Shown piece after piece: positions 1,799 to 9,788 of a DNA stretch of 9,788 nt. Origin of the DNA: Conexibacter sp. (lineage in GTDB: Bacteria; Actinomycetota; Thermoleophilia; Solirubrobacterales; Solirubrobacteraceae); NCBI GenBank assembly GCA_025964295.1, contig JAOPZD010000311.1, positions 1 through 9,788 of the forward strand, given 5' to 3'. A program made the translations under genes and the position numbers. Positions within the stretch are counted from its first letter, which is position 1; each line of letters begins with the position of its first letter. The notes under the pieces were generated by a model. It was not told where the DNA came from. It saw nothing but the letters and a program-made list of their open reading frames with translations, and searched no databases.

Positions 1799-2902
1799 TC
1801 AGGCAGCGCGCGCCAGCTCGGCGGCGATGTCCTCGCCGCCCGGCGGCGCGATGGCCGGCAAGTCCTCGCCGGTGAGCAGCTCGAGCACCGCGCGCTCGAC
1901 CTCGCCCTGGATCGCGGTGCCGTCGCCGGCCTCGGCCAGGCCGGGCAGGGTCCCGGCGATCGTGACGCCGTCGAGGTAGCGGTCGAACGTGCGCGGGTCG
2001 ATGTAGGAGGCGCGCGCGACCGCGGGCGTGTTGCCGAGGTGGTGGGCGACCTCCTTGACGACGCGGGCCATCGCGCGCTTGCGGGCGGTCTTGGTGTCGG
2101 GGACCGGGCTGACGGCGAGGCCGACGGCGGCCAGGACGGTGGCGCCCCAGGTGCGGAAGTCCTTGGCCGAGACGTCCTCGCCGGTGGCGGCCTTCAGCCA
2201 CGCGTTGATGTCGGCGGACTTCACGTCGACCCAGCGGCTCTTGACCTTGTAGGCCAGCAGCTCGTCGCCGCCGCCGCGGCGCTTCTTGAGCGTGCACACG
2301 TCGCCGGCGAGCTCCGGGTCGACCACGGCCTGCACGCGGCGCTTGCCGTGCTTGGCGGGGTAGTCGAAGTAGAGGTCGCCGCCGCGGATCTGGACGTGGC
2401 GCTTCTTCATCGTCGCCAGGCCGTAGGTCTCGTTGGTGACCGCGTAGTCCTCGGTCCCGATCCGGAAGAAGCCGCGGTCCAGCAGCCGGACGGCCATGGC
2501 CAGGACGTGGTCGGCGGAGAAGTCGCCGCGGTCGAGGTCGGCCTGGACGCGCTCGCGCAGCCGGGGCAGCGCGTGGGCGAAGACGACCATGTCCTCGAAC
2601 TTGGCCTGGTCGCGGCGGGCGCGCCAGCGCGGGTGGTAGAGGTACTGCTTGCGGCCGCGCTGGTCGAGGCCGGTGGCCTGGATGTGGCCGCCGGGGTACG
2701 GGCAGATCCACACGTCCTGCCACGCGGGCGGGATGACGAGCTCGTTGACGCGCGTGAGGACCTCGGGGTCCTCGACCTTCGCGCCGTCGCCGTCGAGGAT
2801 CGAGAAGCCGCGGCCGCGCCTGACCCGGCGCAGGCCCGGCCCGCTGCAGTCGACCTTCTTCAGGCGCGGGGCGCGGGCGGCGGCGGCGGGCGGTTGCGGC
2901 AT
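1799..2902 (-). CDS. DNA topoisomerase IB (poxvirus/bacterial type)
   Basis: Type IB topoisomerases nick one DNA strand through a 3'-phosphotyrosyl bond, let the duplex swivel, and reseal it without ATP. The 367-residue protein has the N-terminal DNA-binding domain (GPGLRRVRRGRGFSILD, then IPPAWQDVWICPYPGGHIQATG, about residues 21-78). The catalytic domain includes FFRIGTEDY (Arg147), KHGKRR (Lys184 is the probable general acid), DFRTWGA (Arg250), and LGNTPAVARASYIDP with Asn291 and nucleophile Tyr300. The 50-residue Arg-to-Tyr and 9-residue Asn-to-Tyr spacings match what I recall for the Deinococcus enzyme, where Asn replaces the viral His. Length is usual for bacterial members. It lies 34 nt downstream of Ku. 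The ATG at 2902 has no clear ribosome binding site and sits 2 nt after a perfect 9-bp hairpin, so translation may depend on Ku. Confidence 0.93.
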   Translation of the reverse strand: MPQPPAAAARAPRLKKVDCSGPGLRRVRRGRGFSILDGDGAKVEDPEVLTRVNELVIPPAWQDVWICPYPGGHIQATGLDQRGRKQYLYHPRWRARRDQAKFEDMVVFAHALPRLRERVQADLDRGDFSADHVLAMAVRLLDRGFFRIGTEDYAVTNETYGLATMKKRHVQIRGGDLYFDYPAKHGKRRVQAVVDPELAGDVCTLKKRRGGGDELLAYKVKSRWVDVKSADINAWLKAATGEDVSAKDFRTWGATVLAAVGLAVSPVPDTKTARKRAMARVVKEVAHHLGNTPAVARASYIDPRTFDRYLDGVTIAGTLPGLAEAGDGTAIQGEVERAVLELLTGEDLPAIAPPGGEDIAAELARAA

Positions 2903-2936: not shown

Positions 2937-3830
2937 CTACTTCTTCGCGGCCTCGGACTTGGCGCCGGACTTGGCCTTCGACGCGGCCGGGGCGCGCTTG
3001 CGCTTGCCCTTGCCGTCGGCGTCTGCGTCGTCGTCGCCGCCCGTCTTGCGCACGGCGTCGAGGCTGGCCTTCAGCGCGCTCATGAGGTCGGGGACCGGCG
3101 CGGCCTCCTCGGCCTCCTCGGCGACGACGATCTCCTCGCCGGCGGCCTTCTTCTCGATCATCGCGAGGACGGCCTCGCGGTAGGTGTCGTGGTACTTGCC
3201 GGGCTCGAACTCGCCGGCCAGCGACTCGACGAGCTGCTTGGCGATGTCGAGCTCGCGCGCGTTGGTCTTGACGTCGTCGGCGCCGGGGATGTCGTCGAGG
3301 CGGTCGGGGTCGACGACCTCGTCGGCGAAGAGCATCGTGGCCATCTCGAGGACGTCGTGGTCCTGCAGCGCCCGGATCGCGACGAGGCTCTCCTTCTGGC
3401 GGATGACGACCTTGGCGATAGCGACCCTCTCGGTCTCGCGCATCGCCTCGAGCAGCAGGCGGTAAGGCTTGGCGCCGCCGGCCGCCGGCGCGAGGTAGTA
3501 CGGGTGGTCGTAGAAGATCGGGTCGATGTCGGCGAGGTCGACGAAGTCCTCGATGTCGATCGTCTTCGTCTTGGCCGGCTGGACGGACTCCAGCTCGCCC
3601 GGGTCGATCACGACGTAGCGGTCCGCCGAGATCTCATAGCCCTTGACGAGATCCTCGTAGGCGACCTCCTCGCCCGTCGACGCGTCGACCCGCTTCTGCG
3701 CGATCCGCGAGCCCGTCTGGGCGTTGAGCTGGTTGAAGCGGACCGTCTTGCGGTTGACCGCGCTGTACAGCTTGACGGGCACGGTGACGAGCCCGAAGCT
3801 GATGGCGCCGGTCCAGATCGAACGGGGCAT
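2937..3830 (-). CDS. ku: Ku homodimer protein, non-homologous end joining
   Basis: Bacterial Ku forms a homodimeric ring that threads onto broken DNA ends and recruits the ligase LigD for end joining. The 297-residue product begins MPRSIWTGAISFGLVTVPVKLYSA in full, the diagnostic Ku N-terminus. It continues with the beta-barrel core (YEISADRYVVIDPGELE, DPIFYDHPYYLAP, RETERVAIAKVVIR). The C-terminal 35 or so residues are low-complexity, first Asp-rich then Lys/Arg/Ala-rich, as in actinobacterial Ku proteins whose basic tail adds DNA binding. The start at 3830 is fixed by the conserved N-terminus; no strong Shine-Dalgarno site precedes it. A 9-bp hairpin lies 20 nt upstream of the ATG. LigD is not in the window; topoisomerase IB follows immediately. 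Confidence 0.96.
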   Translation of the reverse strand: MPRSIWTGAISFGLVTVPVKLYSAVNRKTVRFNQLNAQTGSRIAQKRVDASTGEEVAYEDLVKGYEISADRYVVIDPGELESVQPAKTKTIDIEDFVDLADIDPIFYDHPYYLAPAAGGAKPYRLLLEAMRETERVAIAKVVIRQKESLVAIRALQDHDVLEMATMLFADEVVDPDRLDDIPGADDVKTNARELDIAKQLVESLAGEFEPGKYHDTYREAVLAMIEKKAAGEEIVVAEEAEEAAPVPDLMSALKASLDAVRKTGGDDDADADGKGKRKRAPAASKAKSGAKSEAAKK

Positions 3831-4030: not shown

Positions 4031-4633
4031 CTACGAGGTGGCCGCGCCCTCCTTGCGGAAGCGCTCGGAGGGCTTGTTGCCCTCGTGCTTGCCCTCGGCG
4101 AACTCCTCGATCATCTTGTCGTTGAAGGCCGGGATGTCGTCGGGCTTGCGCGAGGTCACCAGGCCTTGGTCGACGTGGACCTGCTCGTCGACCCACGTCC
4201 CGCCCGCGTTGCGGATGTCGGTCTGCAGCGACGGCCACGAGGCCAGCGTGCGGCCGCGGACGACGTCGGCCTCGATCAGCGTCCACGGCGCATGGCAGAT
4301 CGCGGCGACGGGCTTGCCCGCGTCGAAGAACGCGCGGACGAAGGACACCGCCTCCGGGTGCATGCGCAGGTTGTCGGGGTTCGCGACCCCGCCGGGGAGC
4401 ATCAGGCCGTCGTAGTCGCCGGCATCGGCGCTGCCGACCGTGCGATCCACCGGGAAGCTGTCGGCCTTGTCGAGGTGGTTGAAGGCCTGGGCCTCGCCGG
4501 CCTCCGGAGCCAGCAGCTCGACGGTGGCGCCGGCCTCCTCGAGCGCCTTGCGCGGCTCGGTCAGCTCGACCTGCTCGATCCCCTCGTTGGCGACGAGGAT
4601 CGCGACCTTCTTGCCCTTCAGGGTGTCCGCCAT
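4031..4633 (-). CDS. PfpI/DJ-1 family class I glutamine amidotransferase-like protein
   Basis: This 200-residue cytoplasmic protein belongs to the PfpI branch of the DJ-1 superfamily, variously reported as proteases, glyoxalases or protein/nucleotide deglycases. The exact reaction here is not predictable. The N-terminal strand KKVAILVANEGIEQVEL carries the conserved acidic residue Glu20. The nucleophile elbow AICHAPW places Cys113 followed by His114. Flanking family blocks include YDGLMLPGGVANPDNLR (74-90) and the typical tail region LVTSRKPDDIPAFNDKMIEE (158-177). The start is supported by AAGGAGGG 8 nt upstream (4642-4649). It is transcribed divergently from the ferritin-like gene across 55 bp, so the two may share a regulated promoter region. 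Confidence 0.93.
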   Translation of the reverse strand: MADTLKGKKVAILVANEGIEQVELTEPRKALEEAGATVELLAPEAGEAQAFNHLDKADSFPVDRTVGSADAGDYDGLMLPGGVANPDNLRMHPEAVSFVRAFFDAGKPVAAICHAPWTLIEADVVRGRTLASWPSLQTDIRNAGGTWVDEQVHVDQGLVTSRKPDDIPAFNDKMIEEFAEGKHEGNKPSERFRKEGAATS

Positions 4634-4688
4634 CGTGGCGTCCCTCCTTCTGATTCGGGGTCGGGGAGCTACGGGTAGGGCTCACCGC
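4634..4688. promoter_or_regulatory. Divergent promoter region between PfpI and ferritin-like genes
   Basis: The 55-bp spacer between two divergent start codons must hold the 5' signals of both genes. It contains the PfpI Shine-Dalgarno site (4642-4649, minus) and GGGTAGGG (4673-4680, plus), whose end lies about 8 nt before the ferritin-like ATG and probably serves as its ribosome binding site. I cannot place convincing -35/-10 pairs. Core promoters may extend into the coding regions. Confidence 0.45.
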
Positions 4689-5201
4689 ATGGCCCAGACA
4701 CGAAACGCGAGCCAGGGGATCCTGGCCGATGACAAGACGCACGAGCGCGAGCAGATCGTCGAGCTGCTCAAGAAGGCCTACTGGATGGAGCTCGAGACGG
4801 TGATGTCCTACATCACGAACTCCGTGAACCCGGACGGCGTCCGCGCCCAGGAGATCATCGAGTCGCTCAACGGCGACATCCAGGAGGAGCTGGGCCACGC
4901 GCAGCAGTTCGCCGCGCGCATCAAGGAGCTCTACGGGGTCGTTCCCGGCTCCATGGACTTCACGCCCGAGCAGACCTACCTCCAGCCGCCCGAGCACCAG
5001 ACCGACGTCGTCCACGTCATCAAGGGCGTCATCGAGGCCGAGACCGGCGCGATCGAGCACTACAACGCGATCATCGAGGCCACCGAGGGCATCGACCCGG
5101 TGACCAACGACATGGTCATCGCGATCCTCCGCGACGAGGAGGGGCACCGGCGGCTCTTCGAGGGGTACTTGCGGGAGTACGAGGCCGAGGGGCTGGCTTA
5201 G
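4689..5201 (+). CDS. Ferritin-like diiron protein, not encapsulated
   Basis: This 170-residue four-helix-bundle protein of the ferritin-like superfamily is likely to bind or oxidise iron in the cytoplasm. Both halves of the diiron site are visible: a helix with MELETVMSY (Glu34/Glu36), ExxH in EELGHAQQF (Glu67, His70), a third helix with IEAETGAIEHY (Glu116/Glu118), and a second ExxH in RDEEGHRRLFEGYL (Glu150, His153). Length and motif order fit the bacterioferritin/Dps-like group. It lacks the C-terminal cargo peptide seen on the encapsulated ferritin at 6636-7040, ending instead EYEAEGLA, so it probably acts outside the encapsulin shell. Divergent from the PfpI/DJ-1 gene. No clear terminator follows. 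An earlier start in this frame is unlikely because the family begins near this Met. Confidence 0.88.
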   Translation: MAQTRNASQGILADDKTHEREQIVELLKKAYWMELETVMSYITNSVNPDGVRAQEIIESLNGDIQEELGHAQQFAARIKELYGVVPGSMDFTPEQTYLQPPEHQTDVVHVIKGVIEAETGAIEHYNAIIEATEGIDPVTNDMVIAILRDEEGHRRLFEGYLREYEAEGLA

Positions 5202-5277
5202 GTCGCTCGCTGCGGGTTTCCTTGAGCGTTTGTGGATCGCTGTGAGGGTCCGGGACGCCGTTGGTCGGCGGGGCTGT

Positions 5278-5395
5278 CGACACGCTCGCCACCGCACCCC
5301 GCTCGCGCTCGCGTGGCGGTGGCTCGAACGTCGAGGGTCGGTATCGCTGGCTTGGTGCCGCCGACTGTCGTGGCATCGATCGCGCGCTTTGTCGC
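5278..5395 (+). repeat. Repeat copy A of an inverted pair
   Basis: This sequence matches the reverse complement of 5655-5771 over its whole length with only small indels, at roughly three quarters identity by eye. A 21-bp block is identical (5332-5352 here, 5698-5718 in copy B), and GTGGCATCGAT (5370-5380) is also shared. The upstream part contains the common TCGCGCTCGCGT stretch. Both copies keep an open frame reading EGRYRWLG then ADC, GID and AL, but changes between copies include several amino-acid replacements. Coding is therefore unproven. It is possibly a genus-specific dispersed intergenic repeat or a terminal arm of a decayed element. Confidence 0.75.
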
Positions 5396-5577
5396 GGGGT
5401 GCGGATGACGACGTGTCACAGCCCCGCCACGTCCACACTCCCGGCACGTCTCCGCGCCACCCGGCTCAGAGCCTGCGCGAGGCCCTCGGCGCCTTCGGTC
5501 GAACTCACCGGCGCGTCTGGGCATCCGCGTCGCGCACCCTGAGCGCGGAGGCGCCGCGCGACGCGCAGCTGGCTGGT

Positions 5578-5613
5578 GTGCGTCGGGCGGGAAGGGTGCG
5601 TCGGGCGGGAAGG
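5578..5613. repeat. 18-bp perfect tandem duplication
   Basis: GTGCGTCGGGCGGGAAGG occurs twice in direct succession (5578-5595 and 5596-5613) without a mismatch. It lies between repeat copies A and B. The unit is a multiple of three but no gene is supported here. Replication slippage is the simplest origin. Confidence 0.85.
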
Positions 5614-5654
5614 CCGAGGGAGGCCGGCAATCCGTGATGTCGGCGCCGATCGGA

Positions 5655-5771
5655 GCGGCTAAGCGCGGGATCGATGCCACCGCAGTCGGCAGGACCGAGC
5701 CAGCGATACCGACCCTCGGCGTCAGCGGCGCCGCGACGCGAGCGCGAAGCGGAGTGAGGGGTCGAGCGTCG
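5655..5771 (-). repeat. Repeat copy B of an inverted pair
   Basis: This is the minus-strand counterpart of 5278-5395. It has the identical 21-bp core at 5698-5718 and ATCGATGCCAC at 5670-5680. About 260 bp of unrelated sequence separates the two copies. No obvious target-site duplication flanks the pair. Copy B ends about 20 bp from the encapsulin terminator hairpin. Confidence 0.75.
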
Positions 5772-5793
5772 CGGAGTGCCGGGCCGGCCAGCG

Positions 5794-5821
5794 GCGGTGG
5801 CGCTGCCCAAAGCGCCACCGC
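5794..5821 (-). terminator. Hairpin terminator after the encapsulin gene
   Basis: GCGGTGGCGCT (5794-5804) and AGCGCCACCGC (5811-5821) form a perfect 11-bp stem with a 6-nt loop. The stem starts 11 nt after the encapsulin stop codon on the minus strand. No T-run follows, which is common in high-GC actinobacteria. Placement and strength make it the likely 3' end of the sigma-encapsulin operon. Confidence 0.65.
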
Positions 5822-5832
5822 AGATGCAGTGA

Positions 5833-6639
5833 TCAGCGCACGATCGACACCGCGGCCTCCGGGGACACGACCCGGAAGGTGAAGGACTCCTCGAGGTAGA
5901 GGGTGACCGTGTCGGCGTCGTGGGACTCGTAGCCCACGGCGATGTCCTGGCCGGAGTCGAAGAGGAAGTCGCCGCCGCGGAGGGAGAGGACGACGCCGCC
6001 GTCGACGCCCGGAGCCCAGACGATCGGGCCACCGAGGATCTTGCGGAGGTGGTCGAAGAGGAGGTGGCCGCCGTTCTCGGCGGTCTCGATGACGCGGGTG
6101 TACTCCTCGCGGCCGAGAGCCAGGCCGTAGGGGCCCGACACCCCGTGGCGCAGGAGGGTCTCCACCGCCCTGGCCACGTGCGAGGGCCAGCGGTCGATGG
6201 CGTCGCCGCAGGGGATCGGGTCGTGGGGCGACACGCGCGCCACGCCGTCGATCCCGGCCTCCGACCAGCCGTGGAAGACCGCCGTGTTCTCGGCCACGAC
6301 CAGCCGCTGGGCGGCGGCGTCGAGGTCGTCGAAGTCGACGTCCTGCGCTCCGCGGTCGCCGGCGGCCAGCTCGGCGCGCGCGACGGTGAACCGCGCCCGC
6401 AGCTCGGCGAGCGGCAGCACCCTGCGCAACCGGCCCTCGACGTGCTCGAGCGGGCTGATCTCGTCGTCGGCGATCCGGCCGAGGTTGACGCTGGAGCGCT
6501 CCCAGCCCTCGGGGCCGGCGAAGTCGACCAGGCGCCGCGCGGCGAGGCCGGGCGTCAGGCGGTCGCGCGCCTCGTCGTCGATGAGCTTCCACGCGGTGTC
6601 GCTGATCGGCGCGTGGCGGCGCAGCAGATGGCCGCTCAT
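5833..6639 (-). CDS. Encapsulin shell protein, family 1 (HK97 fold)
   Basis: Family 1 encapsulins are HK97-fold proteins that self-assemble into icosahedral shells and take up cargo carrying a short C-terminal peptide. The 268-residue length fits the classical Thermotoga-type protein (about 265). Landmarks I recognise by recall are the N-terminal LLRRHAPISDTAWKLIDDEA, LVDFAGPEGWE (38-47), RVLPLAELRARFTV (73-86), GVSGPYGLALG (166-176), LRGGDFLFDSGQDIAVGYE (220-238) and the terminal ESFTFRVVSPEA (251-262). The start ATG at 6639 overlaps the EncFtn stop in an ATGA, with GGGGAG 8 nt upstream inside the EncFtn gene, so translation is coupled. Cargo is the neighbouring EncFtn. A hairpin terminator follows. 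The sequence gives no sign of phage head or maturation genes nearby, which supports a cellular nanocompartment rather than a prophage capsid. Confidence 0.95.
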   Translation of the reverse strand: MSGHLLRRHAPISDTAWKLIDDEARDRLTPGLAARRLVDFAGPEGWERSSVNLGRIADDEISPLEHVEGRLRRVLPLAELRARFTVARAELAAGDRGAQDVDFDDLDAAAQRLVVAENTAVFHGWSEAGIDGVARVSPHDPIPCGDAIDRWPSHVARAVETLLRHGVSGPYGLALGREEYTRVIETAENGGHLLFDHLRKILGGPIVWAPGVDGGVVLSLRGGDFLFDSGQDIAVGYESHDADTVTLYLEESFTFRVVSPEAAVSIVR

Positions 6640-7040
6640 CGCGTCGCTCCCCGCAGCGAGCCGATGCCGAGCGAGCCGTCGGGCCCGCCGGAGGCCGGCG
6701 AGCCGCCGCCGTCCTCGCCGTCCTCGTCGCCCGCCGCGGCCTCCGCCGTCTCGCCGTGCTCGACGATGTCGCCCGGCTGGAACAGCACGCCCTCGGCGAT
6801 CTCGCGCCACTTCGGCTTGCGCCGCAGCAGGAACTCCAGATCCATCGCGAAGTGCTTGTACTCCTCGCCGACGGCGTCGCTCATGACCGCGTGCGCCTCC
6901 GGGTCCTTCTCGATCGCCAGCCGCTGCTCGTACCAGCCGATCGCCTCGGCCTCCTCGGTCAGCGACGCGCAGAGCCGCGCGAACGTGCGGGTCTCCTCCG
7001 GCAGCTCGTCCGGAGGCTCGTGGTACTGGTCGAAGCCCAT
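6636..7040 (-). CDS. Encapsulated ferritin-like protein (EncFtn) with cargo-loading peptide
   Basis: EncFtn is a two-helix ferritin relative that forms an annular oligomer, oxidises ferrous iron at subunit interfaces, and works inside an encapsulin shell where the mineral is stored. The 134-residue protein has the family core: EEAEAIGWYEQR (Glu32), DPEAHAVMSDAVGEEYKHFAM with Glu60 and His63 as the ExxH pair, and KPKWREIAEGVLF. These align with the Glu32/Glu62/His65 ferroxidase residues I recall for the Rhodospirillum rubrum protein. An acidic Gly/Ser/Pro-rich linker (about 95-120) leads to DGSLGIGSLRG (121-131), the classic encapsulin-targeting peptide, followed by only three residues. It overlaps the shell gene by 4 nt and starts 9 nt after a Pro-rich small gene. 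Only a weak ribosome site (GTAGG) precedes the ATG, so coupling to upstream translation is likely. Confidence 0.95.
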   Translation of the reverse strand: MGFDQYHEPPDELPEETRTFARLCASLTEEAEAIGWYEQRLAIEKDPEAHAVMSDAVGEEYKHFAMDLEFLLRRKPKWREIAEGVLFQPGDIVEHGETAEAAAGDEDGEDGGGSPASGGPDGSLGIGSLRGATR

Positions 7041-7049
7041 GCGCCCAAC

Positions 7050-7262
7050 CTACTCCGCCGGCGAGGGCGGTTCGATCGGCTCTTGTGGCGGATCGATCGG
7101 GTCCTCGCGCGGGGCGTCGGGCTCGGGGACGTCGGGGCCGACCGGGTCGCCGGGCGTGCCGGGCTCCTCGATCGGGACCGGGTCCGCCGGGGCCGGCGCG
7201 GGCTCGGGGACGATCGGCGTCGCGGGCTCGACGGGCTGCGGGACTTCCAGAACGGGGGTCAT
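7050..7262 (-). CDS. Small proline- and acid-rich protein in the encapsulin operon
   Basis: This 70-residue open frame starts 10 nt after the HAD stop and ends 9 nt before EncFtn, so it fits the operon exactly. By my count 25 residues are Pro and 16 are Asp/Glu, with one Arg and no Lys. There are repeated PEP, PAPAP, DPV and EPP patterns and no hydrophobic segment or signal peptide. Such a protein should be disordered and strongly acidic. I do not recognise a family. GGGTAGG lies about 8 nt before the ATG. Against it, high-GC DNA readily gives chance Pro-rich frames. For it are the spacing, the ribosome site and the lack of any other gene in this 232-nt gap. It might coat or tether the nanocompartment, but that is speculation. 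Confidence 0.6.
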   Translation of the reverse strand: MTPVLEVPQPVEPATPIVPEPAPAPADPVPIEEPGTPGDPVGPDVPEPDAPREDPIDPPQEPIEPPSPAE

Positions 7263-7272
7263 GGGCCCATGC

Positions 7273-7938
7273 CTACCCGAGCGGCGTCTCGTCCAGCGCG
7301 AGGCGCAGCGCGTCGATCGATCCGAACACCGCCGACGCCCCCGCGTCGAGCAGCTCCTCCTCGGAGAACCCGCCGGTCAGCACCGCGATCGACGGGATGC
7401 CAGCGGCCTTGGCGGCCTCGCAGTCCCAGGTCGAGTCGCCGATCATGATCCCCGGCGCGCCGTCGAGCTTCTCCAGCGCCGCCAGGATCAGGTCCGGCGC
7501 CGGCTTGGTCTGCTCGACGTCGGCCGACGTCGTCCAGCTGTCGGCCAGCGAGCGCGCGTCGAGGAGGTCGAGGTAGTGGTCGACCTCGTCGGCCTTGGCG
7601 CTGGAGGCCAGGACGACCTTGCGGCCGCGGTCGCGCAGGTCCTCCATCAGCGCCCGAGCGCCGCGCAGCGGCTCGACCTCCTCGATGAACGTGAGGTACA
7701 GCGCCTTCTCGGCGGCGCGGATGTCCTCGCCCTCGCGCTCCTCGACCTCCTCGCTGAGCAGCGCGCTGATGAGCTTGTCGCCGCCCATGCCGATGTGGCG
7801 GTGGATGCGCCAGATCGGGACCACGTGGCCGTACTGGCGAAACGCCCGGAACCACGCGATCGCGTGGTGGTAGTTCGTGTCGACCAGCGTTCCGTCGATG
7901 TCGAGGATCGCGGCGGGCGGCTGCTTCTTGGCGGTCAC
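7273..7938 (-). CDS. HAD-superfamily hydrolase, phosphatase-like
   Basis: This haloacid dehalogenase superfamily enzyme is probably a small-molecule phosphatase or phosphomutase of the Gph/beta-PGM type, using an Asp-phosphate intermediate and Mg2+. All four motifs are present in the 221-residue form: motif I ILDIDGTLVDT (Asp13, Asp15), motif II LASSAKAD (Ser112), motif III TKPAPD (Lys145) and motif IV IGDSTWDCEAAKAAG (Asp168, Asp172). Residues about 22-90 form a helical C1 cap. The substrate cannot be read from sequence. The start is taken as GTG at 7938, which overlaps the DUF6328 stop as GTGA; a GTG one codon upstream is equally possible. The frame also opens further upstream (to 8013), but that part overlaps the previous gene and looks non-native. 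It is cotranscribed with the encapsulin genes. Confidence 0.9.
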   Translation of the reverse strand: MTAKKQPPAAILDIDGTLVDTNYHHAIAWFRAFRQYGHVVPIWRIHRHIGMGGDKLISALLSEEVEEREGEDIRAAEKALYLTFIEEVEPLRGARALMEDLRDRGRKVVLASSAKADEVDHYLDLLDARSLADSWTTSADVEQTKPAPDLILAALEKLDGAPGIMIGDSTWDCEAAKAAGIPSIAVLTGGFSEEELLDAGASAVFGSIDALRLALDETPLG

Positions 7939-8432
7939 CACTCCGTCTTGCCCGCAGCGCGCCGCCGCAATGCGAGACCGAACCACAGCCAGCCGAACAG
8001 CGCCGCCGAGCACACCAGCGTGATCGCGACCGTGAGGCTGTGGAAGAGGATGTCGGTGAGCAGCAGCAGCGCGCCGTTCATCGCCAGCGCGAGCGCGCCC
8101 ATGCCGACGATCGTCTGCCGCGTCCCGAGCTCGACGAGGTAGGGCTTCTGGCCGGCGCGGAAGGTCAGCCGGTGAAAGGCCGAGGGCGCCATCAGGAACG
8201 CGGCCGCGACGGCCGTGAGCAGCAGCGTGACGAAGTAGACGTCGCGCTGGAAGGCGTCGATCTTCTGGAAGCCCTGCTGGAACGGCACGGTCAGCAGGAA
8301 GCCGAACAGGACCTGCACCCCGGGCATGATCACCCGCAGCTCGTTGAGCAGCTCGATCAGCTCGCGGTCGAGCCGCTCGGCCTGGTCCTCGTCGGACCGG
8401 GCCTCGTGCTTGGACTCCTCGGGCGCCATCAT
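7935..8432 (-). CDS. DUF6328 four-helix membrane protein
   Basis: This 165-residue integral membrane protein has a charged N-terminus (about 1-35, with QAERLDRELIELLNELRV). Four hydrophobic segments follow at about 36-52, 65-87, 107-128 and 132-154, then a basic C-terminus (LRRRAAGK). The segments VIMPGVQVLFGFLLTVPFQQ, FQRDVYFVTLLLTA and FLMAPSAFHRLTFR match the DUF6328 family as I recall it. That family is widespread in actinobacteria; some members carry an unsupported 'sodium:proton antiporter' label. Its function is unknown. Start MM at 8432/8429 with no strong ribosome site. It lies 33 nt after the sigma factor stop and overlaps the HAD gene by 4 nt, so it belongs to the sigma-encapsulin operon. 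Confidence 0.82.
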   Translation of the reverse strand: MMAPEESKHEARSDEDQAERLDRELIELLNELRVIMPGVQVLFGFLLTVPFQQGFQKIDAFQRDVYFVTLLLTAVAAAFLMAPSAFHRLTFRAGQKPYLVELGTRQTIVGMGALALAMNGALLLLTDILFHSLTVAITLVCSAALFGWLWFGLALRRRAAGKTEW

Positions 8433-8465
8433 CGACGCCCGAGGGATGTCCGGAAGGCGGCGCGA

Positions 8466-9227
8466 CTATGCGGCGGCGGGGACCGTGATGCGGTCGCGCA
8501 GCTGCTGCACGGTGCGGCGGATCAGCCGCGAGACGTGCATCTGGGAGATCCCGATGTGCTCGGCGATCTCGCGCTGGGTGAGGCCCTCGTAGTAGCGCAG
8601 GCGCACGATCTCGCGCTCGCGCGGGGCCAGCTCATGGAGCCCGTCGGCGAGCATCGCGCGCGCCTCGGCGCGCTCGTAGCCGTGGTCGTCGTCGCCGATC
8701 GCCTCCAGCGGGCCGGTGCCGTCCAGGAACGGCTGGTCGAGCGACAGCGTGCGGTAGGCCTCGGCGGCGGCGAGCGCCTCGGAGACGCGGTCCTCGTCGG
8801 CGCCGGTCGCCCGGGCCAGCTCGGCGACCGTGGGCGAGCGGCTGAGGTCGTGCACGAGCCGCTCGCGCACGACGCCGATCCTGCCGCTGAGCTCCTGGAT
8901 CTCGCGCGGGACGCGCATCATCCAGCCGCGGTCGCGGAAGTGGCGCTTGAGCTCGCCGGCGATCGTCGGGACCGCGTAGGTCGCGAACCGCACGTCGCGG
9001 CTGAGGTCGAAGCGGTCGATCGCCTTGATCAGGCCGACGCACGCGACCTGCTCGAGGTCGTCGAGCGGCTCGCCCTTGTTGGCGTAGCGGCGCGCGAGGC
9101 TGCGGGCCAGCGGGAGCATCCGCGCGGCCACCTCGTCGCGTGCCGCCCGGTCGTCCTGGGTCTGCCAGCGGTGCAGCAGCGCGCGCACGTCGTCGCCGCC
9201 CGCGCTCGAAGCGGTCGTCGGACTCAT
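8466..9227 (-). CDS. SigF/SigB-family RNA polymerase sigma factor
   Basis: This 253-residue group 3 sigma-70 factor directs RNA polymerase to alternative, typically general-stress, promoters. Region 2 spans about 37-106, with DLEQVACVGLIKAIDRFD (57-74) and FATYAVPTIAGELKRHFRD (81-99) for core binding and -10 recognition. Region 3 follows MRVPREIQELSGRI (104-117). Region 4 ends with the helix-turn-helix LTQREIAEHIGISQMHVSRL (216-235) for -35 recognition. The order and the PREIQEL and ISQMHVSR blocks fit the SigB/SigF/SigG branch. The start at 9227 is chosen because GGGAGGGGA lies 3-11 nt upstream; an in-frame extension to 9347 has no such site and crosses a palindromic operator. No RsbV/RsbW anti-sigma partner appears next to it, which is unusual for this branch. 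It is divergent from a MerR-PAS gene. Confidence 0.94.
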   Translation of the reverse strand: MSPTTASSAGGDDVRALLHRWQTQDDRAARDEVAARMLPLARSLARRYANKGEPLDDLEQVACVGLIKAIDRFDLSRDVRFATYAVPTIAGELKRHFRDRGWMMRVPREIQELSGRIGVVRERLVHDLSRSPTVAELARATGADEDRVSEALAAAEAYRTLSLDQPFLDGTGPLEAIGDDDHGYERAEARAMLADGLHELAPREREIVRLRYYEGLTQREIAEHIGISQMHVSRLIRRTVQQLRDRITVPAAA

Positions 9228-9230
9228 GGT

Positions 9231-9239
9231 TCCCCTCCC
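9231..9239 (-). promoter_or_regulatory. Shine-Dalgarno site deciding the sigma factor start
   Basis: The minus strand reads GGGAGGGGA close before the ATG at 9227. This strong site argues against the 40-residue N-terminal extension that the open frame would allow. Confidence 0.7.
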
Positions 9240-9256
9240 GGTGATGTCCCTGCCTG

Positions 9257-9278
9257 CCATCCCCAGAACTGGGGATGG
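9257..9278. promoter_or_regulatory. Perfect 10-bp dyad operator candidate in the divergent spacer
   Basis: CCATCCCCAG (9257-9266) and CTGGGGATGG (9269-9278) are exact reverse complements with only AA between them. The half-site TGGGGATGG recurs at 9294-9302, 24 bp after its first copy (9270-9278). The compact dyad is typical of a dimeric regulator such as MerR. It lies 29 nt upstream of the sigma ATG and 79 nt upstream of the MerR-PAS ATG, so one bound protein could control both. TATCCT at 9282-9287 (plus strand) is a possible -10 box, but no good -35 accompanies it. Confidence 0.65.
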
Positions 9279-9310
9279 GCGTATCCTCACTTTTGGGGAT
9301 GGCCGCGCAA

Positions 9311-9383
9311 GGTGGACACGACTGGGCAGAGGTCGCTTCGGCAACAATTGTCACCATGTCCGGGGTGGACAAGGCTGGGCAGA
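9311..9383 (+). repeat. Pair of 20-bp direct repeats spanning the MerR-PAS start
   Basis: GGTGGACACGACTGGGCAGA (9311-9330) recurs as GGTGGACAAGGCTGGGCAGA (9364-9383), matching at 18 of 20 positions. The offset is 53 bp, close to five helical turns. One copy lies in the leader and the other inside the first codons of the MerR-PAS gene. The pair could be protein-binding sites, or a local duplication that donated the start of the gene. Confidence 0.6.
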
Positions 9384-9788
9384 CGGTCAGCGCCACGCGG
9401 TTCTCGGAGCTGACCGGCGTCTCGCGCGAGCGGCTGCGAACCTGGGAACGGCGCCACGGGTTCCCAGACCCGGTCCGCGTCGGGTCCGGACCCCGGCGCT
9501 ATGCGGCCGCTGACGCTCCCCGTGTCGTCGCCGTGCGGTTCGCCGCGCAGGCGGGGACGCCGCTGGAGACCGCGATCGCCGCCGCGCGCGCCGCCGTCCC
9601 GCCGGACGCGCCGCACGACAGGGCGTTCCGCGCCGCGGTCGAGCTCGCGCCGGTCCCCGTCGCGCTGGTCAGCGGCCCGGAGCCGCTGCGGATGGCCTGG
9701 GCCAACGCGGCGCTGCGGGCGATCGAGGGCTCCCCCGCACCCGGCGAGCTGCTGTCGGTGGTCGCCGCGCACCGGACCGGCGCGACGA
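9358..9788 (+). CDS. MerR-type HTH regulator with PAS-like domain (partial, cut by window end)
   Basis: From the ATG at 9358 the frame is open to the window end (143 codons), so the C-terminus is missing. Residues about 10-60 form a MerR-like winged helix-turn-helix: TRFSELTGVSRERLRTWERR followed by GFPDPVRVGSGPRRYAAAD, including the family's WERRhG and RRY marks. After an Ala-rich linker (about 62-90), the segment VELAPVPVALVSGPEPLRMAWANAALRAIEG resembles the start of a PAS sensor domain, as I judge by the 'WANAAL' pattern. A C-terminal output domain (for example GAF, PP2C phosphatase or further sensor) may follow outside the window. The start lacks a strong ribosome site; ACAATTGT at 9344-9351 is just upstream. 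Being divergent from the sigma gene, it is a good candidate for a regulator of that operon and of itself. Confidence 0.75.

Follow-up and report, generated by a model that had tools for sequence, protein, structure and literature searches.

Which of the genes that precede an encapsulin nanocompartment belong to it, and which only stand beside it? The question is raised by a 9,788-nucleotide (nt) stretch of Conexibacter sp. (contig JAOPZD010000311.1, called the window below), in which six minus-strand genes begin with a stress-type sigma factor and end in an encapsulated ferritin (EncFtn) and its encapsulin shell. An earlier note had read the six as one stress-controlled operon, in which the sigma factor, a membrane protein, a HAD phosphatase and a proline-rich peptide (Pro) were extra components of the compartment. 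We favour a different reading and consider it likely, namely that a single insertion brought an ordinary EncFtn-encapsulin pair into a SigB-HAD-ferritin-Ku stress block that already existed, and that EncFtn and shell have a promoter of their own. The six genes, given with their lengths in amino acids (aa), and the hairpin that follows them are:

8466..9227, minus strand: SigB/SigF-type sigma factor, 253 aa (TIGR02980, SigBFG, 263.8 bits against a cut-off of 234.35)
7935..8432, minus strand: DUF6328 membrane protein, 165 aa (PF19853, 157 bits, E 3.5e-46)
7273..7938, minus strand: HAD hydrolase with a GTG start (HAD_2, PF13419, 92 bits)
7050..7262, minus strand: Pro, a proline-rich acidic peptide, 70 aa, probably disordered (no family match)
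6636..7040, minus strand: EncFtn, 134 aa, C-terminal SLGIGSLRG (PF22277, EncFtn-like, 72 bits against a cut-off of 27)
5833..6639, minus strand: Family 1 encapsulin shell, 268 aa (NF041155, 274.9 bits against a cut-off of 100; PF04454, E 2.3e-76)
5794..5821, minus strand: perfect hairpin past the end of the shell gene, which may act as a terminator (stem of 11 base pairs, 6-nt loop, no T-run)

The order of the genes, their gaps (33, -4, 10, 9 and -4 nt), their family names and the hairpin were all reproduced as the earlier note had given them, and the reading frames are open in all six genes. EncFtn reaches 84.5 bits with the NCBI subfamily model TIGR04535, which is under the cut-off of 125, and was hence placed in the wider Pfam family. 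Its C-terminus (SLGIGSLRGATR) carries a cargo-type peptide, GSLGIGSLRG; a peptide of the form LGI..L is found in 36 of 38 EncFtn relatives with a shell versus 0 of 20 without one (two of the 60 rows were omitted). The PDB matches are 33bf, 7oe2 and 5da5 for EncFtn and 9ry4, 8dn9 and 7odw for the shell, which is by its sequence a Family 1 encapsulin, and a compartment with cargo is predicted. In the HAD protein the DxD, S, K and GD motifs are all present by eye, the top NCBIfam models are an inorganic diphosphatase and a phosphoglycolate phosphatase, each scoring under its own cut-off, and the closest solved chain is 3s6j. NCBIfam and Pfam searches at E 0.01 gave no match for Pro. The fold of the hairpin region is no better than that of shuffles (z -0.91), and the hairpin is not visible by eye in the 110 nt past the shell gene of five relatives, where one of them (G274) has a different inverted repeat. 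Rfam at gathering scores had no match in the window, and terminator and sigma-70 promoter scans of positions 4600-9788 returned no site.

The stress block in genomes that have or lack the compartment beside it

In order to place the six genes among relatives, we used a sample of 399 genomes from the class of the Solirubrobacteraceae metagenome-assembled genome G001; EncFtn was found in 69 of them. The stretches around 60 EncFtn matches were compared, and in three (G274, G230 and G302) sigma and DUF6328 genes precede EncFtn as in the window. A separate scan of genome contigs yielded three loci, and a sigma search in the 146 genomes of the family of G230 returned seven close orthologues with 64-92% identity. 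An EncFtn protein search with at least 8000 candidates was used only as a sign that relatives are many. Altogether the EncFtn-encapsulin cassette lies inside the block at six loci, those of the window, G403, G230, G274, G302 and G402. The gene order given in the earlier note is kept in five more genomes, with some damage. In G402 the contig cuts DUF6328, which is followed by HAD, Pro, EncFtn, encapsulin, ferritin, DJ-1, Ku and topoisomerase; no sigma gene is visible there. The block of G274 has no HAD match, and in G230 residues 74-168 of HAD alone match, residues 1-73 with the catalytic DxD being gone and the remnant running in frame into Pro; EncFtn and shell persist in both. The SigB/F-type sigma, DUF6328, HAD, Pro and EncFtn-encapsulin are thus a conserved neighbourhood within one small clade of actinobacteria, and stress-linked expression of the compartment is therefore plausible. 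This part of the stress-linked control in the earlier note is retained, but a separate promoter is predicted for EncFtn.

The sigma gene is itself part of a larger block, the remaining genes of which in the window are:

4689..5201, plus strand: Dps/ferritin-like protein, convergent, part of the block (PF00210)
4031..4633, minus strand: DJ-1/PfpI protein, part of the stress block (TIGR01382, over the cut-off)
2937..3830, minus strand: Ku protein, part of the stress block (PF02735, 173.5 bits; position kept in relatives)
1799..2902, minus strand: topoisomerase IB, part of the stress block (PF01028 and PF21338; position kept in relatives)
9356..9787, plus strand: N-terminal part of a MerR-type regulator, divergent, running past the window edge (PF13411, 30 bits against a cut-off of 21.6)

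Across relatives the stress block of this Solirubrobacteraceae-like lineage consists of the MerR-type gene, the SigB-type sigma, DUF6328, HAD, CsbD and/or Pro, the Dps-like ferritin, DJ-1, Ku and topoisomerase IB. In eleven relatives the block contains sigma and HAD but no EncFtn-encapsulin, with DUF6328 in eight of them and Ku in ten. In three (G318, G019 and G401) sigma is accompanied by DUF6328 and HAD, then come convergent ferritin and DJ-1 and, as far as the contigs extend, Ku and topoisomerase; the contig of G401 stops at DJ-1. G318 and G401 add CsbD, and G318 and G019 add Pro. Among 20 sigma loci, G397 has the order MerR, sigma, HAD, Ku; at eight loci Ku comes directly after sigma, and at three others topoisomerase does. 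Twelve further loci were picked from ferritin and DUF6328 matches; seven (G013, G367, G415, G320, G398, G404 and G109) show the succession sigma, HAD, Ku, five of these with DUF6328 and none with the cassette, and the other five have a partial or different arrangement. A CsbD-like gene follows HAD in G415, G404, G109, G318 and G401 (PF05532 was checked on the G318 copy). EncFtn was not found anywhere in the genome in seven of the eleven (G318, G019, G401, G013, G398, G404 and G109); the shell was searched in the first three of these and not found, so that neither protein was found in these three genomes. The other four (G367, G320, G415 and G397) have EncFtn-encapsulin away from the block. Sigma and HAD, in most cases together with DUF6328, therefore make up a unit of a stress and DNA-repair block that is independent of encapsulin, and the compartment looks like a newcomer to it.

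When 50 shells were placed in a tree, those of the six block loci grouped together (support 96/86), nested among the shells of the family. In the sigma tree, from which G402 was left out, G318, G019 and G401 branch outside the window, G403, G230, G274 and G302. The EncFtn core tree has little resolution. We infer that the EncFtn-encapsulin pair, itself of an ordinary kind, entered the block a single time, behind Pro, in the ancestor of the six sampled genomes and was then inherited; one gain explains both the single shell clade and the outgroup sigmas.

Several observations concern the block itself. The ferritin-like protein is 87-96% identical in seven block relatives (G230 has a partial match only), and its gene is conserved more strongly than sigma or shell. 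The spacer between shell and ferritin (5202-5832) is 631 nt long in the window and looks repeat-rich by eye; it is 29-137 nt in G402, G403 and G302, 836 nt in G274 and 3,530 nt in G230. The window also has an MFS transporter gene on the side of ferritin, DJ-1, Ku and topoisomerase. At the other end, two full-length orthologues of the MerR-type protein, of 407 and 413 aa, have the MerR helix-turn-helix domain and a GAF_2 match under the cut-off. At loci of relatives (L036, L037, L041, L127 and L129) the MerR gene is flanked by two SigB-type sigma genes, the block sigma and a paralogue that is 50-53% identical to it and about 2 kb upstream, at a site past the edge of the window. No anti-sigma gene of RsbW type is among the genes named at the locus, where no search aimed at one was made.

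Predicted promoters of the pair and of the block

Four predicted promoter elements bear on how the block and the pair would be expressed:

7047..7052, minus strand: TAGGTT, a conserved TANNNT (-10-like) box that falls on the stop codon of Pro, 6 nt ahead of the EncFtn start, and is predicted to be a leaderless promoter for EncFtn and shell
7273..7278, minus strand: GGGTAG, possible SigB-type -10 of Pro, 10 nt before the Pro gene, formed by the last Gly codon and the stop of HAD
4652..4678, plus strand: GATT-N17-GGGTAG, predicted SigB-type promoter of ferritin, 10 nt before the ferritin ATG
9283..9312, minus strand: CCTTG-N19-GAGGAT, probable promoter of the sigma gene, conserved with the divergent MerR gene

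A TANNNT box ends 6-9 nt ahead of the EncFtn start at all six cassette loci, as TAGGTT (window, G402), TAAGTT (G403), TAGATT (G230, G274) or TAGCGT (G302). In five of the six its TA is that of the stop codon of Pro, the stop being TAA in G403; in G230 the Pro stop lies 11 nt ahead of the box, yet the box is kept, which argues for selection on it. TANNNT close to the start is a mark of the leaderless promoters mapped in Mycobacterium tuberculosis, as described in part of PMC3898074, and by eye the three bases ahead of the box fit the extended form given there. In order to see how specific this placement is, we used 80 stretches upstream of EncFtn (79 distinct). TANNNT stands 5-10 nt before the start in 18 of the 80, versus 0 of 57 for encapsulin. 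The same place gave 0/26 for sigma, 0/19 for MerR, 0/7 for HAD, 0/8 for Pro, 0/9 for DJ-1 and 0/12 for topoisomerase, and single positives for DUF6328 (1/8), ferritin (1/8) and Ku (1/16). Among the 30 EncFtn stretches that have no Shine-Dalgarno match, TANNNT ends 6-9 nt before the start in 15 and occurs elsewhere among 70 positions in two; four of the 30 are block loci. Among the 49 with a Shine-Dalgarno match it is at the start in two (window and G302), and 22 matches are scattered between positions 31 and 69, where promoters of transcripts with a leader would be expected. The pair probably has its own promoter, then, besides read-through. This tempers the single transcript of the earlier note: no terminator-like site was found between the genes, but a separate promoter ahead of EncFtn, of the kind that the note gave as refuting it, is predicted in silico at all six loci.

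The other boxes of the block are of a different kind. Streptomyces SigB-type promoters combine GNTT with GGGTAT/G/C, according to part of PMC8346170. All 8 of the 8 block loci scored (G230 was not among them) have GGGTAG or GGGTAC exactly 10 nt ahead of the ferritin gene, with GNTT 16-17 nt further up in four, and eight of ten further loci have GGGTAN within 60 nt, at 9-10 nt in two and at 31-43 nt in six. Of 8 block loci, 6 have it 9-19 nt upstream of Pro, in no case with a GNTT -35. CsbD has it in 3/3, each time with GNTT (at 9-10 nt in two and at 41 nt in the third), topoisomerase in 6/11 overall and 5/7 in the block, and Ku in 8/16, at 10-12 nt and seven with GNTT. The motif is near zero at sigma (0/26), HAD (0/7) and encapsulin (1/57). 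Autoregulation of sigma through a SigB-type promoter was rejected, the 26 sigma genes having no GGGTAN within 60 nt of the start. At the sigma gene itself, 14 of the 15 loci where a MerR gene lies divergently have the pattern CCTTG-N19-GA..AT, and 0 of the 9 where none is visible (among them G403, which is cut by the contig end), a pattern that was written after the alignment had been viewed. Promoters controlled by MerR-type proteins are typically spaced by 19-20 nt, and we infer that CCTTG and GAGGAT are the -35 and -10 elements, with MerR binding.

Three side observations touch these sites. The two ferritin-type systems adjoin each other, and their predicted promoters are unlike. A palindrome (CCATCCCCAG TT CTGGGGATGG, 9257-9278) lies between the sigma promoter and the sigma start and is a possible operator or hairpin; its arms are similar in G403, G230 and G274 and not in the stretches compared from G302, G318 and G401. 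Ku directly follows a SigB-type sigma gene with a divergent MerR gene at eight loci (L130-L133, L140, L141, L143 and L145), and seven of those Ku genes (not L133) have GNTT-N15/16-GGGTAN 11-12 nt ahead of the start, the sigma being apparently tied to end joining.

Could the block sigma itself read the box on the Pro stop codon? The insertion would then have made the compartment, on landing, a direct leaderless SigB-type target together with the Dps-like ferritin and the DNA-repair genes. We regard this as a tentative idea that is rather unlikely to be right. With its preceding bases the box is GGGTAG in G230, whereas the other five have GAGTAG or GAGTAA, and it lies 9-12 nt ahead of ATG, close to the GGGTAG-N10 arrangement of ferritin. 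However, the full GGGTAN is present in only one of six and lacks a GNTT -35, and 11 of the 26 EncFtn genes outside the block that have no Shine-Dalgarno match carry TANNNT at the same place, most without GGG.

A number of points weigh against the insertion reading and the promoters assigned to it. Many of the genomes are drafts, so that an apparent absence may be an assembly gap, and start codons of relatives were assigned by a nearest-start rule. The motifs were picked after the sequences had been inspected. No -35 is visible by eye at EncFtn; the block TANNNT boxes are orthologous, and in five of six a stop codon supplies the TA for free. In the window and G302 the script rule scores a GGAG at a poor distance as a Shine-Dalgarno, and by that rule the other four cassette loci have none. 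The short gaps and the lack of a terminator-like site from sigma to EncFtn make one long transcript quite possible. As for the SigB-type boxes, two of the ten further ferritin genes have no GGGTAN, that of Pro overlaps the coding sequence of HAD in part and lacks a -35, and none of seven block Ku genes has one; GGGTAN is also found at EncFtn (12/80), MerR (2/19), DUF6328 (1/8) and DJ-1 (1/9). Each genome has several SigB-type paralogues, any of which may read a given box.

On the insertion reading, the block might work as follows. A MerR-type sensor would activate the sigma gene from its promoter with the 19-nt spacing. The sigma factor, or a paralogue, would fire the GGGTAN promoters of ferritin, Pro or CsbD and topoisomerase, and those of Ku in related blocks, and DNA protection and iron sequestration would rise jointly. 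EncFtn and shell would be expressed from their own leaderless promoter, with its -10 box built on the Pro stop codon, and some read-through from upstream may reach them, perhaps also from the box ahead of Pro. EncFtn would then oxidise Fe(II) and the shell hold the mineral, by analogy with known systems.

Repeated loss and compartment partners as less likely readings

Loss in the outgroups fits the trees too, with more events needed. The block would in that case have contained EncFtn-encapsulin originally and have lost it in G318, G019, G401 and others. EncFtn is indeed widespread, being present in 47 of the 146 family genomes and inside the block in five. Several losses are required, however; the block shells form one nested clade; and block and cassette coexist apart from each other in the four genomes named above. 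We therefore think an ancestral cassette improbable.

The loci of 46 of these 47 genomes were inspected, the exceptions being G417 and a second copy in G350, and they bear on the partner operon of the earlier note. None of the 41 other inspected family genomes has same-strand block genes beside EncFtn, although several contigs stop within 1-3 kb. The SigB-type genes that lie divergently 1.0-1.6 kb upstream of EncFtn in G266, G372 and G224 are a distant paralogue and were taken as unrelated; in G372, the one inspected, a further gene stands between. It is in the short gaps with two 4-nt overlaps, the gene order kept in relatives and the missing terminator-like site that the idea of sigma, DUF6328, HAD and Pro as membrane anchor, phosphate supply and disordered cargo finds its grounds. 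Against these stand the eleven relatives whose block has sigma and HAD and no cassette, three of them with neither EncFtn nor encapsulin found genome-wide, and the persistence of EncFtn and shell in two of six cassette genomes where HAD is absent or has no DxD. We judge such a partnership to have little chance of being correct, and the roles of a phosphatase and a membrane partner are unsupported. HAD as phosphate supplier was rejected as a needed part on the same two counts, and Pro as cargo because it has no LGI..L peptide by eye and its orthologues occur both with and without an adjoining EncFtn (without in G318 and G019).

Related systems and significance

The EncFtn-encapsulin pair is established. 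The known Family 1 systems with EncFtn cargo (Haliangium ochraceum 7oe2, Rru_A0973 5da5, and 33bf) share with the window an EncFtn gene directly upstream of the shell gene and overlapping it, the LGIGSL cargo peptide and a full-length shell. The window pair differs from them in ending a SigB-type stress block, in its predicted leaderless start and in an EncFtn under the TIGR04535 cut-off. The earlier note knew of no described case of a stress sigma factor, a membrane protein and a HAD phosphatase sharing such a transcript. Sigma genes beside encapsulins are not new as such: parts of PMC10960027 and PMC12140327 describe a conserved RpoH-like sigma gene adjoining DyP-encapsulin pairs of enterobacteria. 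The likeness is that a gene for a stress sigma factor is kept beside the encapsulin pair; there, by the same parts, the cargo is DyP, the sigma is of another class and downstream of the shell, and the genes are on mobile elements. For EncFtn-encapsulin with a SigB-type sigma, a literature search of open-licence papers found no description, and the word 'sigma' is absent from the main text of an encapsulin survey (PMC8346489) and a review (PMC11202242). One weak PDB match of the ferritin (2qqy, E 4e-4) bears the deposited name 'Sigma B operon', and links between sigma and ferritin may therefore not be new.

The SigB-type general stress regulons in the part of PMC8346170 cited above, where nine SigB homologues are given for Streptomyces coelicolor, resemble the block in the SigB-type sigma, the GNTT...GGGTAN boxes and, in some relatives, the CsbD-like protein. 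In contrast to them, the window block has a divergent MerR-type gene, Ku and topoisomerase IB, and no anti-sigma among the genes named. The s-FLP type, short EncFtn-like proteins without a cargo peptide (3k6c; part of PMC11202242), shares the EncFtn core with the window (3k6c match, E 2.4e-11), whereas the window EncFtn has peptide and shell, the shell-less relatives being other loci. Such short relatives without the peptide are found at 21 of 60 loci (L069, L071-L087, L092, L094 and L095). They are mostly of 103-109 aa, with 57-78% identity over the matched core and no encapsulin within the stretch compared, and are possibly kin of the s-FLP type as that part presents it. A shell search in 24 genomes with short copies gave a real shell only in G376, beside its other EncFtn, and a weak partial match in G199.

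The arrangement in the window is real and conserved in its clade, and its main explanation is insertion into a stress block that was there before. The comparison tells the true compartment parts, EncFtn and shell, apart from bystanders that a reading of a single genome would call partners, and relatives sharing the stress block with or without the compartment offer a natural comparison. If the promoter reading holds, the locus would be a clear case of a cassette using the stop codon of a host gene as part of its promoter. If the sigma factor does read the EncFtn box, iron sequestration and DNA protection would form a combined programme. The wider block, with SigB, DUF6328, HAD, CsbD, ferritin, DJ-1, Ku and topoisomerase IB, links a stress sigma factor to DNA end joining in understudied bacteria.

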